From NCBI GenBank assembly GCA_021414245.1, contig JAIOOU010000004.1, positions 124,001-188,000 of the forward strand: a stretch of DNA of 64,000 nucleotides. Direction: 5' to 3'. Source of the DNA: Chloroflexota bacterium (lineage in GTDB: Bacteria > Chloroflexota > Anaerolineae > Anaerolineales > Villigracilaceae). The notes beneath the pieces are model-generated. The model made no database searches and was not told where the DNA came from. It saw nothing but the letters and a program-made list of their open reading frames with translations. The position numbers and the translations under genes are program-made. Below are positions 12,642 through 37,402 of the stretch, in pieces. Positions within the stretch are counted from its first letter, which is position 1. Each line of letters begins with the position of its first letter.

Positions 12642-14264
<1,623 letters not shown>

Positions 14265-14278
14265 ATTGATGAAAGAGG

Positions 14279-14303
14279 AAAGAAGAAAGAAGAAAGAGGA
14301 ATG
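14279..14303. repeat. Left arm of an imperfect inverted repeat flanking the four-helix-bundle gene
   Basis: A purine-only tract of GAA/GAAA units directly before the small gene. The 19 bases at 14279-14297 match the reverse complement of 14788-14806 at 18 of 19 positions, and the match resumes with AATG after a 2-base insertion. The tract also contains the AGAGGA ribosome site. Confidence 0.6.
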
Positions 14304-14309
14304 ATCTGC

Positions 14310-14783
14310 ATGAATTATGTTGAGTGGCAAAAATCTATTCCAACCGAAATTACGAACGATCCGATTTGGAAACTTGAAGTGTATCGTTTTGCATTATTTG
14401 CTGGAGACATTGGATGGCATGATGTGCTTGCTCTGTCCAAAAATAAACTCATGTATAGTATTACAGACCAACTACATCGTTCCCTTGGTTCAATCAGCGC
14501 AAATTTGACCGAAGGATATTCAAGAAGCAAAGGCCTGGACCGGGCGCGCTTTATTGAAATATCTCTCGGCTCTGCTCGTGAAAGCCGCGACTGGTATTAC
14601 AAATCAAAGCAGGTTTTATCTCCTGAAGTCATCAAACATCGCATGGAGCTGATCACTCATATTATTGCATTGTTGGTTCCAATGATTTCCCATCAAAGAA
14701 AGAATGCCATCCGCGAAGAACAAGCCGAATATCTGATCCAACCATCAAACTTCTCCATTGATTCAGAAGTACCCATCCCTTAA
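14310..14783 (+). CDS. Four-helix-bundle protein, 23S rRNA intervening-sequence (S23) type
   Basis: About 157 residues, mostly helical. DQLHRSLGSISANLTEGYSR and ARFIEISLGSARESRDWYY are hallmarks of the S23/four-helix-bundle family (TIGR02436-type), whose members occur inside 23S rRNA intervening sequences, free in genomes, and as Avd partners of diversity-generating retroelements. The molecular role is unknown; relatives form pentamers that bind nucleic acid. Base use is clearly more AT-rich than its neighbours, suggesting later arrival. ATG 14310 is favoured over 14301 since AGAGGA then lies 9 bases upstream. It sits between inverted repeats, amid genes for acyl-CoA metabolism to which it bears no evident relation. 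Confidence 0.85.
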   Translation: MNYVEWQKSIPTEITNDPIWKLEVYRFALFAGDIGWHDVLALSKNKLMYSITDQLHRSLGSISANLTEGYSRSKGLDRARFIEISLGSARESRDWYYKSKQVLSPEVIKHRMELITHIIALLVPMISHQRKNAIREEQAEYLIQPSNFSIDSEVPIP

Positions 14784-14807
14784 CATTTCTTTCATCTTTC
14801 TTCTTTT
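14784..14807. repeat. Right arm of the inverted repeat flanking the four-helix-bundle gene
   Basis: A pyrimidine-rich CATTTCTTTCATC / TTTCTTCTTTT tract starting right after the TAA stop (14781-14783). Its reverse complement matches the left arm at 14279-14303. It ends 13 bases before the next gene's ATG. Confidence 0.6.
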
Positions 14808-14820
14808 ATAGGAACTTACC

Positions 14821-15297
14821 ATGCCCTTCGAATCCACCACACCCCACCATTTCCTCTCCCGCCTGGCTGGCAATTGGCGCGGACTGTCCAGGCTCTGGCT
14901 CGAGCCGGATAAACTTGCGGATGAAGCCCCGCTGGTCGGGACCATCCAATTGCTGCTCGAAGGGCGCTTTGCCCTTTATCTTTATCAAACCTCCTTTGAT
15001 GGCGAACCCCAGCATGGCATGTTCACCTTCGGTTACAACACCACGCTCGCGCAATTCGAAGCCAGTTGGGTGGATTCGTTTCACACAGGCACGGCCATCA
15101 TGTTCTGCACCGGTGTCGAGAAGGAAAACGGTTTCTCTGTTACGGGCAGTTACGCGGATCCGTCCGGCGGACCCGACTGGACCTGGCGCACGGAAGTTGA
15201 GTTGATCGACGGCGAGCTTACGATCACAGCCTATAACATCGATCCGGAAGGCGGCGAATCCAGGGCAACGGAAACGATCTTGAAAAAAGTGAAATAA
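14821..15297 (+). CDS. DUF1579-like protein
   Basis: A 158-residue soluble protein that looks like a DUF1579-type beta-barrel: LSRLAGNWRGLSRLW at the N-terminus, then repeated beta strands such as GRFALYLYQTSF, HGMFTFGYN and ELTITAYNI, ending in TETILKKVK. This pattern (weigh, perturb, compare strands around GNW) is common in this lipocalin-like family. The function of the family is not established. No signal peptide. It may originally have followed the carboxyltransferase gene directly, before the four-helix-bundle unit came to lie between them; that is inference. Confidence 0.65.
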   Translation: MPFESTTPHHFLSRLAGNWRGLSRLWLEPDKLADEAPLVGTIQLLLEGRFALYLYQTSFDGEPQHGMFTFGYNTTLAQFEASWVDSFHTGTAIMFCTGVEKENGFSVTGSYADPSGGPDWTWRTEVELIDGELTITAYNIDPEGGESRATETILKKVK

Positions 15298-16010: not shown

Positions 16011-17885
16011 ATGCAGGATTTTTCCAAAATCCCTTCGCCTCCGGTCAGGCCTCCTTCGCGGCGTAAAAAGAAACGCCAGTCGGACCTGTTGCTGTTTTTA
16101 TTTTTCCTGTTCCTGCCCAGCCTGCTTGCCGTCTGCCTGGGATTCGGTCTGTTCCGCGCGGGATACATCCCAAGTTTTATTGCCTCCAATTTGACGGCCA
16201 CCGTGGCCGCCCAGAAGAATGTCAGCTGCCAGGCCCTGATCGAAAAGGCCATGCAGACCTCCAATACAGCCTGCAGCGAGATCGCATCGAACACGGCCTG
16301 TTATGGGAACAATACCATTAAAGCGGACCTGGCGCCCGGAACCACGCAAACATTTTCAACCCGCGGCGATGTCGTTGATGTCGACAAGGTCCGCCGTATT
16401 TCCGCCTCGCCTTTAAAGCTGGACAGCAATGAGTGGGGTATTGCTGTTTTAAAGGTCATTGCGAATCTGCCGCGTTCCCTGCCGGGTCAGACGGTGACCA
16501 TGGTGGTGTTTGGAAATACAACCCTGGATAACGAAAGCGGCAGCCTTGAATCCTTCTTCTTTTCCAGCGAGCTGGGCCAGATCGTATGTGAAAAGGTCCC
16601 TGACGATGGGATCATGATCAGTGTGCCGGAAGGCGAGGGAGTCCGGTTTAACGTCAACGGTTCGGAATTAACCCTGACCGGAGATGCTTCCATTAAGGCT
16701 GTAAAGAATGGAAAAATGGAAGTCAGTCTGTTTGAAGGCTCCGGCCGCATCGTCTCTAACGGGCAGGAACAATACTTCGGAGCCGGCCAGCAGGTTGACG
16801 TTCAGTTGGGAGGCGAGAATGGCACCTCTTCCATCAGTGCACCATCCGCACCGAAGCCGTTGTCCCAGGAGGATCTGGATACCGCCTGTGCGTTGACGGG
16901 TCAATTCTGCACACAGGATCAGATCACTCCGGTCAGCAGTGAAGCAGCGCAGCAATCCATTCAGCAGGAGCTTGGCATCACCCCGACGGTCGCTTTGACG
17001 GCGACGAATTCGTATACCCCAACCGCAGCGGTGACCTTTACTCAAACCCTCACGCCCACCGCTGCATTTACACCGACCATTACCAGCACACAGACCCCGA
17101 TCGTTACCAATGCCATTATTTTAATTCCCTCGTGGACCCCAACCCGCACGCCCACCAAAACCAAGACTCCGGTCCCGGCGGCTCCAAAATCAAAGACACC
17201 CACCAAGACCCCAACCCGCACCCGGACTCCGACCCGAACGCCAACCCGTACCCCGACGATCACCCCGGGCGGGCCGACACTCACCCCAAGCAATACAGCA
17301 ACTAATACTGCCACAAATACAGCGACCAATACCGCTACCAATACCGCCACCAACACGGCGACGAACACCGCAACCAATACGCCCACAAATACAGCGACCA
17401 ATACTGCGACCCGTACCGCCACGAACACGGCGACGAACACCTTCACGCCAACCGCCACATTTACGGCAACGGATACCTTTACTCCAACGGCGACCAATAC
17501 TCCGATCGGAGATGCTGTCTGTTCCCAGATCACTGCTGGATCCCTGTCACGAAGCGGGAAAGATCTGGTTTTTGATTTGACCAATAGTTTTGGCGGTGAT
17601 GTCACTATTGATGCCATGCACATCATCTGGCTTGTAAGCCCGGCTATCAAATTGAATACTATCAACATGGATGGCAATCAGATCGTAAGTGCCAATGAGT
17701 CGACCTCGCCCAGTGATTACCCATCCCCGAATCCATTTGCTGGGACTGTCGCCCGGCGTATCATAGAAAATGACGGTTCTCCAATTGAAACATTCACGAT
17801 TACTTTCGAAGAGAATCCAACCGGAAGTGGATATTCAGTCCAGTTGCATTTTGACATTGGCTGCCAGCTCACAGTTTCGAATTAA
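16011..17885 (+). CDS. Membrane-anchored extracellular protein with FecR-like domain and Thr-rich repeats
   Basis: 624 residues. A basic cytoplasmic tail (PSRRKKKRQ) and one signal-anchor helix (about 25-50) place the rest outside the cell. Residues about 100-275 resemble a FecR-like beta domain ([13 protein letters not shown], then [19 protein letters not shown] and [19 protein letters not shown]). Next comes a long Pro/Thr linker that ends in a regular Asn-Thr-Ala-Thr repeat, then a C-terminal beta domain of about 120 residues. Several Cys pairs fit an exported protein. It lies 11 bases after the FHA gene and 40 before the kinase gene, so the three probably form an operon. A surface sensor or structural partner of the kinase is plausible but unproven. 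Confidence 0.8.
17296..17436 (+). repeat. In-frame 12-base tandem repeat encoding (Asn-Thr-Ala-Thr)n
   Basis: About eleven units with the 12-base period AAT-ACN-GCN-ACN, varying mostly at third positions, inside the extracellular linker of the 16011-17885 protein. The units before and after are Thr/Pro-rich versions of the same pattern. Such repeats change length easily by slippage or recombination, giving a spacer of variable reach outside the cell. Confidence 0.85.
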
Positions 17886-34990: not shown

Positions 34991-37402
34991 ATGAAGTCGC
35001 ATGTGCAGGTGGTCGTTGTCGGCGGTGGGATCGTGGGGACGAGTGTGCTGTACCATCTTGTAAAATTCGGCTGGACGGATGTGCTGCTGATCGAGCGCAA
35101 TGAATTGACCTCTGGTTCCACCTGGCATGCGGCCGGTGGATTCCACGCACAGAACGACGACCCGACCATTGCGGGACTTCAAGGTTATACCATTCGATTA
35201 TATAAAGAGATCGAGGCCGAGAGCGGACAAAACATCGGCATGCACATGACCGGCGGAGTCAGCCTCGCGACCACGCCGGAACGCTGGGAAATGCTCAAGG
35301 TCGAGAAATCGCGCTTTGAAACAATGAATATGGACACGCATCTCATCACACCCAAAGAAATTCAAGAAATGTGCCCCATTGTGGATTTGAAGGATGTGAT
35401 TGGCGGTTTATATGATGAATTCGAAGGCTACATGGATCCGCATGGGACCACACACGCGTATGCAGGCGCGGCACGCAAACGTGGCGGCGAAATTTCTTTG
35501 AATAATCGTGTACTTGAATTGAATCAACTGGTCAATGGTCAATGGTCAGTGGTGACAGAACAGGGAACGGTCATTGCTGAACACGTGGTCAATGCCGCCG
35601 GGTTATGGGCTCGTAAAGTGGGGAACATGGTTGGGATTAACTTGCCTGTCATACCCATGCAGCATCATTATTTGGTTACAGAAGACATTCCTGAATTGAT
35701 TAAATTAGAAAAGGAAATTATTTCAGTCACCGACCTGGAAGGCTTCACTTATCTTCAGCCTGACAGAAAAGGTGTTTTGCTCGGCGTTTATGAACAGAAT
35801 CCACGCCACTGGAAGACCGAGGGCGCCGATTGGGAATACGGCATGGAATTGCTTTCCACCGACATCGACCGCATCAGCCCTGAACTTGAAATTGGATTCA
35901 ATCGTTTTCCTGTACTGCAAAACGCAGGCATTCGACGCTGGGTGAACGGCGCATTCACATTTACGCCGGATGGGAATCCACTGGTGGGGCCGGTGCCCGG
36001 GATGAAGAATTGCTGGGTCGCGTGCGGATGCATGGGCGGTTTTTCACAAGGCGGCGCGATTGGGCTCACGCTTGCCAATTGGATGATCCATGGTGACCCT
36101 GGTTATGACATCTTCGGCATGGATGTCGCCCGTTATGGAAAATTCGCTTCCGATGATTCATATCTCAAGGCGAAAACCGCGCAATTTTATGCAAGGCGAT
36201 TTGTGATCTCGTATCCGAATGAAGAACTCCCCGCAGGGCGTCCGCTCAAGACCTCACCAAATTATGATGTGTTGAAAAAGGCGGGTGCTTTGTATGGTGT
36301 TACCTGGGGCATGGAAACCCCGCAGTATTTCACACCAAATCAAATTGATTTTATTGAAAAACCCACTCTTCGGCATTCCAATGCGTTTGATTTTGTGGCC
36401 GCAGAAGTCAGATCAACGCGGGAAGCGGCAGGTATGTTCGAGAGCGCAGTCTATGCTCGTTATGAAGTCTCAGGCCCGGGCGCGGAGGCGTGGCTGGATC
36501 ATCTGGTCGCATCGAAGCTGCCGAAGATTGGACGCATCAAACTGGCGCCGATGTTGAACAAAAATGGAAAGTTGATGGGTGACCTGACCATCAGCCGACT
36601 CGCCGAGGATCGTTTCTGGATCATCGGTTCGTATTATCTGCAGGAATGGCATATGCGCTGGTTCCATGAAAACCTTTCCGCAAATGAAGTGACGATCAAA
36701 AACCTTTCCGATGACTGGATGGGGTTTGCCTTGTCGGGCCCCAATTCAAGAAAAATTATTTCTCAGTTTGCCGGCGCGGACATGTCGAATGAAGCATTCC
36801 CATTTTTATCCTGCCGTGAAATGGAAGTGATATCTGCAAACGCAATGGTCGCGCGCATCTCGTTGACGGGCGAGTTGGGCTACGAGATCAATGTGCCTGT
36901 GGCATATCAACAGGCCTTATATGCTGCGCTGACCGAAGCTGGCAGGAATTTGGGATTGGTCAACATCGGCAATCGTGCCCTCGATAGTCTGCGGCTAGAG
37001 AAGAGTTATGGCATTTGGAGCGCTGAGTTCACGCAGGGATACACGCCCGGAATGTCTTATCTCAAGGATTTCATCCCCTTTGATAAAGGTGATTTTATCG
37101 GGCGTGAGGCGGCGTTGAAGGAAAAGGTGACAGGTGCAGCTCAAACTCTCGTTGCTTTACAAGTTGATTCAATCGATGCCGATGCTCCAGTGTATGCTCC
37201 CGTGAAATCCAATGGCAAAGTCGTTGGATTTATCACATCGTCTGCTTATGGACATTTCGTGAAGGAGAGTCTGGCTTTGGCGTATGTTGAAAAGGAATTT
37301 GTCGATGCTGATCTAACAGTGGATGTGATCGGTGAAGCGAAGCAGGCGATTGTGTTGAAAGAACCTGCCTATGATCCCAAAGGCGAGAAGTTAAGAGCGT
37401 AG
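34991..37402 (+). CDS. Dimethylglycine/sarcosine-dehydrogenase-like FAD protein fused to a GcvT domain
   Basis: 803 residues. The N-terminal FAD domain (about 1-370) has VVVVGGGIVGTSVLYHL and ERNELTSGSTWHAAGG, with the His of TWHAAGG where dimethylglycine dehydrogenases attach FAD covalently. A linker domain leads to a C-terminal aminomethyltransferase (GcvT-like) half (about 430-800): LSGPNSRKII, SLTGELGYEINV, ALDSLRLEKSYG. Family knowledge: the oxidase half removes a methyl group from an N-methyl amino acid and the folate half captures the formaldehyde as methylene-tetrahydrofolate. The substrate is probably dimethylglycine or sarcosine. AGGAG precedes the ATG. Confidence 0.92.
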   Translation: MKSHVQVVVVGGGIVGTSVLYHLVKFGWTDVLLIERNELTSGSTWHAAGGFHAQNDDPTIAGLQGYTIRLYKEIEAESGQNIGMHMTGGVSLATTPERWEMLKVEKSRFETMNMDTHLITPKEIQEMCPIVDLKDVIGGLYDEFEGYMDPHGTTHAYAGAARKRGGEISLNNRVLELNQLVNGQWSVVTEQGTVIAEHVVNAAGLWARKVGNMVGINLPVIPMQHHYLVTEDIPELIKLEKEIISVTDLEGFTYLQPDRKGVLLGVYEQNPRHWKTEGADWEYGMELLSTDIDRISPELEIGFNRFPVLQNAGIRRWVNGAFTFTPDGNPLVGPVPGMKNCWVACGCMGGFSQGGAIGLTLANWMIHGDPGYDIFGMDVARYGKFASDDSYLKAKTAQFYARRFVISYPNEELPAGRPLKTSPNYDVLKKAGALYGVTWGMETPQYFTPNQIDFIEKPTLRHSNAFDFVAAEVRSTREAAGMFESAVYARYEVSGPGAEAWLDHLVASKLPKIGRIKLAPMLNKNGKLMGDLTISRLAEDRFWIIGSYYLQEWHMRWFHENLSANEVTIKNLSDDWMGFALSGPNSRKIISQFAGADMSNEAFPFLSCREMEVISANAMVARISLTGELGYEINVPVAYQQALYAALTEAGRNLGLVNIGNRALDSLRLEKSYGIWSAEFTQGYTPGMSYLKDFIPFDKGDFIGREAALKEKVTGAAQTLVALQVDSIDADAPVYAPVKSNGKVVGFITSSAYGHFVKESLALAYVEKEFVDADLTVDVIGEAKQAIVLKEPAYDPKGEKLRA

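Follow-up and report, generated by a model that had tools for sequence, protein, structure and literature searches.

Inverted seven-base repeat arrays around an S23-type four-helix-bundle gene of a Chloroflexota bacterium: probable ends of a small mobile element

Intervening sequences (IVSs) of 23S rRNA are known to harbour members of the S23 family. Among cyanobacterial repeats, the name STRR reportedly goes back to Mazel in 1990, and small mobile repeats are said to have been described in this group by Elhai in 2008. In the accessible text of its description, the IVS of Coxiella has a 28-bp terminal stem, is cut by RNase III and carries two to three GACAGAT heptamers before its S23 gene, with a number that varies between strains, and the same text cites earlier suggestions of present or past IVS mobility (PMC4990558). 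From the portions available of the respective papers, CPR rRNA insertions contain S23 genes as well (PMC11270868), IVP genes have been found in cas loci (18 genes; PMC3936711), a relation of PF05635 to Avd has been noted (PMC10053308), and heptamer repeats have been reported as the STRR repeats of cyanobacteria (PMC2670836) and as the TAACTGA repeats of Beggiatoaceae, Cyanobacteria and Bacteroidetes, which are direct repeats whose origin was called unknown (PMC4679880). A search of the available text of the TAACTGA paper for S23 or four helix returned no mention. In the literature within reach (mainly titles and abstracts, with subscription papers and preprints outside PMC mostly unreachable), we found no report joining heptamer arrays to four-helix-bundle (FHB) genes generally, and the nearest published precedent for such a link, as far as its accessible text goes, is the single Coxiella IVS case (PMC4990558).

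We analyzed a 64-kb stretch of a Chloroflexota contig (64,000 nucleotides, positions 124,001 to 188,000 of JAIOOU010000004.1), hereafter the window, which contains an S23/IVP-type FHB gene at 14301..14783 on the + strand. The original prediction, made from the letters of the window alone, had placed this gene between inverted repeats matching at 18 of 19 positions, and this was confirmed: the arms at 14279-14297 and 14788-14806 are 19 nt long, 95% identical (18/19) and 490 nt apart, and form the only inverted pair of this quality and spacing in the window (19 nt, at most one mismatch, a common exact 9-mer, gap of 300-700 nt), while none of 5 first-order Markov windows yielded a pair by the same criteria. 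The left arm is a period-7 tandem array (14271..14301, +; inverted core 14279-14297) that TRF called independently with 4.4 copies of the unit GAAAGAA, and the right arm (14788..14806, +) is the reverse complement of that array at 18/19 positions, falling slightly below our array threshold when scored by itself (27 against 28). Shuffling the flanks with their composition kept gave a mean score of 9.2, and 0 of 5000 shuffles attained the observed score of 18, so purine/pyrimidine bias alone is insufficient to explain the match between the arms. The left tract had been described as ending at the start codon; the likely start codon is ATG 14310, because homologues begin there (residue 3-5). As anticipated, the gene is lower in GC than its surroundings (0.41 across the FHB gene against 0.49-0.60 in surrounding windows). 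It lies between genes and not inside an rRNA gene, with an acyl-CoA carboxyltransferase gene upstream, outside the element (12642..14264, +; PF01039), and a DUF1579 gene downstream (14821..15297, +; PF07617). The supposed interruption of a run of carboxylase genes thus stood on the upstream side but not downstream, where DUF1579 is not a carboxylase, and several relatives that lack the FHB gene have the DUF1579 gene directly beside the carboxyltransferase gene. An Rfam search of 13900-15200 returned no match. Elsewhere in the window, a second period-7 array (35524-35553, unit TCAATGG, 4.1 copies) lies inside an apparent open coding stretch about 20 kb from the closest FHB gene, and tandem repeats of 12/24/36/72 nt at 17207-17490 encode a Thr/Asn/Ala-rich part of the ORF at 16011-17885.

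The window protein matched PF05635 (S23, 23S rRNA IVP) at 50.6 bits (curated cut-off 33.8) and TIGR02436 (four helix bundle protein) at 59.7 bits (cut-off 24), and its AlphaFold model consists of four long helices (mean pLDDT 80.6). A Foldseek search of this model against the PDB placed chains of the S23-like structures 2rld and 2gsc at ranks 1-10 (prob 1.00, E 0.004-0.04, none <0.001) and 4dwl (Avd) at rank 19. The source genome holds four FHB genes in total, and the words in their flanks differ by locus: AAAGAAG in the window, GATGAAT at L002, where the two sides have matching arrays, and GATTTGC/GATTTAC at L003, which has a clear array on one side. The fourth gene, L001, has no measurable arms by score, the inverted scores being 22 for the window, 18 for L002, 13 for L003 and 11 for L001.

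Set beside the IVSs, the window locus is likewise a unit of about 0.4-0.5 kb that holds an S23 gene and whose complementary ends are predicted to be able to form a stem around the gene, and the heptamers beside the S23 gene recall those of Coxiella in the available text (PMC4990558), so the likeness to IVS anatomy first proposed for this locus was upheld. The differences are that FHB units stand at junctions between protein genes and not in rRNA (none of the seven rRNA motifs sought was present in the surveyed FHB loci), that each copy has its own word, and that inverted arrays lacking an FHB gene exist as separate inserts among the FHB units. An FHB unit therefore has the anatomy of an IVS and, by its location, falls outside the definition of one.

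For the survey, we scanned 235 sequences, of which 216 had an FHB match, and dropped 20 with an identical FHB domain or flanks shorter than 120 nt, yielding 196 loci including the window: 123 from Chloroflexota (window included), 72 of 80 named loci and one viral contig, the one relative found in the viral collection. These 196 loci are not independent, because near-identical copies and same-site orthologues remain among them; most are best-scoring matches, which favours intact genes, and the named sample was gathered with a narrower alignment and favours one IVP subfamily. For each locus we obtained an inverted score by comparing the 250 nt before the gene with the reverse-complemented 250 nt after it and taking the best local match. 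Its median was 19, against 11 in a mismatched-locus control with a 95th percentile of 18 and a 99th percentile of 22. Scores exceeded 18 in 109/196 loci and 22 in 67/196 (51/123 Chloroflexota, 16/72 named, 0/1 viral), compared with 13/196 above 22 for the direct-orientation version of the test and with 5 above 18 and 1 above 22 among 116 mechanically called neighbouring ORFs. Among the record titles of the 16 named loci that exceed 22 are Chloroflexi, Phycisphaerales, Kuenenia, Verrucomicrobiales, Acidobacteria, Nitrospiria, Bacteroidia, Sulfuricella and Polyangiaceae. Arms of this kind around FHB genes, which it had been suggested to look for in related genomes, were found above the 99th percentile of the control in about a third of the loci, with words that differ by locus.

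The arms are built on a period of seven. Among the 109 loci above 18, agreement was 0.56 at lag 7 and 0.54 at lag 14 against a background of 0.27, and the best lag was 7 or 14 in 89 loci and 8 in 12. Both sides of the gene carried a period-7 array in 111/196 loci and a single side did in 61; the other 24 had none, so that 85 lacked an array on one or both sides. Of 496 background stretches taken farther from the gene in these loci, 14 held one. Where both sides had an array, the left word and the reverse-complemented right word differed at 0-2 of 7 positions in 96/111 loci, compared with 19% of mismatched pairs and with 24/111 when the words were compared in direct orientation (≤2/7 differences); the inverted orientation was the closer one in 94 loci, the direct orientation was closer in 9, and 8 were tied. 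The FHB loci carry 130 distinct canonical words, many of which, such as GATTAGC and CTATCAG, are not purine tracts.

We then compared the window's junction across 30 loci of the genus: 12 carried the FHB gene, 16 lacked it, one (L058) held a decayed FHB gene with the left arm kept and the right arm lost, and one had no carboxyltransferase. Because the same site is filled in 12 of these 30 loci, the window copy looks long resident. No close empty copy of the window's site was found among the 30, only diverged unoccupied junctions; empty sites of other FHB elements exist in Nostocales plasmids (see below). Pairwise dN/dS of the FHB protein at this site was 0.04-0.27 in the 31 of 45 pairs for which it was computable, most of them near saturation, the other 14 having saturated dS and no ratio; two loci with the FHB gene in split pieces (L051 and L061) were compared by their flanks only and left out of dN/dS. 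On these ratios the protein is under purifying selection at the window's site. Some of the 12 filled loci carry AAAGAAG words on both sides and others GAAAGTG/GTGAGTG on both sides, and the loci's own pairing of left and right arms beat random pairing (p 0.002, 20000 permutations); at a second shared site, upstream of a thiolase-like gene (6 loci), 4 of 720 permutations were as good, the true pairing included. As read from these alignments, the arm word is copy-specific and fast-drifting, yet left and right change together. Arms varying freely around a conserved gene had been named as what would speak against a unit of gene and arms. The arms do vary, but the two sides vary jointly, so the link between arms and gene was strengthened and not refuted. 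At the same junction, the right arm of L043 carries both word types and its FHB gene resembles a hybrid of two types found at this site, possibly a product of recombination between element types. At this junction L038, L042, L051 and L057 carry further dispersed repeats, TGGTCGAGTAG...GAGACCA-like and GTCATGCTGAGCG-like, and in two cases such repeats lie inside or beside an FHB left arm.

Evidence for movement comes from relatives on Nostocales plasmids and not from the window's own site. In one Nostoc operon available in nine copies (L309-L317), junction A is filled by an FHB gene with GGAGTCA arms in 3 copies, empty in 5 and occupied by another ORF in 1, and junction B is filled in 1 and empty in 8, by a different FHB element with GGGAAAA arms; the empty sites at both junctions hold no array. 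The GGAGTCA FHB gene and its arms also occur at unrelated positions on plasmids of Trichormus/Scytonema and Aulosira. Plasmids of Nostoc linckia and Microchaete have the Trichormus site without the insert, between flanks that are 98.6% and 98.0% identical. Target duplications vary between sites, from about 5 bp at two to 3 bp exact at one and none at one: the filled Trichormus copy has GTAAT (5 bp) at both ends, junction A repeats TTCTA with a 1-nt change nearby, junction B repeats only ATG exactly (3 bp), and an insertion nested in L315 has no target repeat, the Aulosira site showing a small loss of flank. Derivatives are present as well: in L322 the FHB element has an internal deletion but keeps its two arms, L323 has lost the gene end and right arm and kept the left arm, L315 has an FHB-less inverted array inserted inside the FHB gene itself, and further FHB-less inverted arrays occur in L311, L314 and L330. 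The copy number of the heptamers shifts by 7-nt steps, L320 lacking 14 nt that are present in L319. Filled and empty sites, unrelated placements, a deletion derivative and FHB-less arrays together argue that the FHB units are small mobile elements with gene-bearing and gene-less, MITE-like forms, and the suggestion of a small mobile unit with its own arms was in this way borne out through relatives.

Three other plasmid arrangements were recorded. In the nesting seen across L322, L330 and L329, the GGAGTCA element lies within a tract of GAGTAAT type, and the close relative L329 lacks this tract. On a Pseudanabaena plasmid (L307) an FHB gene sits between cas6 and cas4 with arrays on both sides, partly direct and partly inverted, and on a Picosynechococcus plasmid (L321) one sits between cas10 and cmr3 with short-repeat arrays on both sides.

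Array density was compared over larger blocks, a comparison that is only indicative with an FHB-free control of 208 kb from four genomes. The 464 kb of the window's contig held 7 heptamer arrays, 2 of them at FHB genes, and 399 kb of the genome G106 held 43, of which 8 lay within 300 nt of FHB genes and 35 farther away. At a stricter threshold for pairs (partner within 1.5 kb, score of at least 19), the 464-kb block gave no pair despite its two FHB genes, and in the G106 blocks four inverted pairs had arms about 430-630 nt apart, each of them at an FHB gene (4 of the 7 there; one of the four assigned to its gene by coordinates). The G106 blocks also held one non-FHB pair, with a gap of 1.2 kb, and one pair whose members overlap. 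FHB genomes ranged from 0 to 8.5 arrays per 100 kb, and the four FHB-free genomes had none in their 208 kb. The zero belongs to G025, which runs contrary to the trend, with 6 FHB matches and no array in 100 kb.

The units encode no recombinase gene, and we looked for partner enzymes in 20 genomes with FHB genes. Reverse transcriptase (PF00078) had no match in 8 of the 20, including G106 with its 22 FHB matches, nor in G000, and Y1 transposase (PF01797) had none in 6 of the 20; the source genome has one PF01797 match, on another contig (C6). For the 20 genomes searched, these absences rule out both enzymes as universal partners residing in the genome. The FHB units resemble REPIN/RAYT systems and MITEs, as far as the available text describes them (PMC3116915), in their inverted ends, gene-bearing and gene-less forms and intergenic insertion, and differ from REPIN/RAYT or IS200/IS605 in having no Y1 transposase and ends that are not one conserved sequence. 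With Avd of the diversity-generating retroelements they share the four-helix-bundle fold and not the reverse transcriptase. With the STRR and TAACTGA repeats, from the accessible parts of both papers, they share seven-base tandem units between genes that differ by 7-nt steps (PMC4679880, PMC2670836); FHB arrays, in contrast, are inverted pairs around a specific gene and not direct repeats.

Four other accounts of the locus were weighed. Modelled on the IVS, the unit could act as RNA: its arms would pair in the transcript, RNase III would free the FHB message, the protein would bind its own stem, and operons would tolerate the unit since it is cut out. The sense RNA of the window unit is indeed predicted to pair its ends (z -2.6, with 1/100 shuffles as good), the 28-bp stem, RNase III cutting and heptamers of the Coxiella IVS offer a precedent within the text available (PMC4990558), and the upstream neighbour is co-directional with the FHB gene in 92/126 loci by a crude ORF call. 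By the same call, however, the FHB gene is opposed to both neighbours in 13/126 loci, a further gene that runs against its neighbours being that of L332, between nrd genes, and RNA cutting alone explains neither movement nor heptamers. A strand-specific test of arm mismatches showed no excess of G:U-compatible differences over those of the A:C type (252 against 310; per locus, 30 one way, 45 the other and 34 ties), so the test gave no support to an RNA stem as what holds the arms alike: a stem in RNA is possible but is not what the differences between arms show. We regard this account as rather unlikely. The neutral outcome of the wobble test would suit a purely mutational origin, in which slippage grows the heptamers and template switching keeps the arms alike, both being functionless marks of old insertions, and so would the change in copy number by 7-nt steps (14 nt between L320 and L319) and the fast variation of arms at conserved sites. 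Arms are nevertheless rare at neighbouring genes (1/116), and therefore something specific to FHB genes starts them; gene-less inverted arrays, moreover, occur as inserts. This origin seems to us unlikely, somewhat more so than an RNA unit.

That FHB genes land in pre-existing heptamer arrays acting as hot spots would fit the orphan arrays and the L322 element in its array-like tract, but a gene landing within an array would be flanked on each side by the same word in the same direction, against the 94/111 loci in which inversion is closer and the 9 in which direct orientation is, and it is contradicted at the sites examined by the array-free empty sites of junctions A and B; we consider it highly improbable. 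Least credible of all is an ordinary role in expression, in which a ribosome-binding region rich in purines and a pyrimidine tract would be complementary by chance. The left arm of the window is purine-rich and abuts the start codon, as this would have it, but shuffles that preserve composition never attain the score and the survey contradicts it with its many non-purine words.

The stretch at about 14271-14808 is in our view probably a gene-bearing small mobile element, an S23/Avd-like FHB gene between inverted arrays of about seven bases, an explanation based on comparison, mostly of relatives. Such elements sit at junctions between genes. Its matched arms could let the ends pair, in a DNA hairpin or a single-stranded intermediate that would be the moved form, and the same paired intermediate might allow one arm to be copied from the other. 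A ring of FHB protein would bind or anneal the paired ends, this and the end pairing being the weakest steps of the scheme, and the cutting or copying enzyme would be supplied by the host.

More tentatively, and with considerable doubt, we propose that FHB/S23 proteins could be the mobility proteins of widespread recombinase-free elements with self-renewing inverted heptamer ends, each round of movement or repair rewriting both ends in step, and that rRNA IVSs, STRR and TAACTGA repeats and the IVP genes of cas loci would be their products. This proposal would join three separate topics: the S23/IVP genes, whose function is unknown, the heptamers, whose origin is unknown, and the rRNA IVSs, for which mobility has been proposed. 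It would also let the IVP genes counted in cas loci in the available text of PMC3936711 be read simply as insertions like the others (L307, L321), so that these genes may be passengers there. With a concrete unit that has defined ends, empty sites and gene-less derivatives, movement of the FHB elements would become testable in culturable cyanobacteria.
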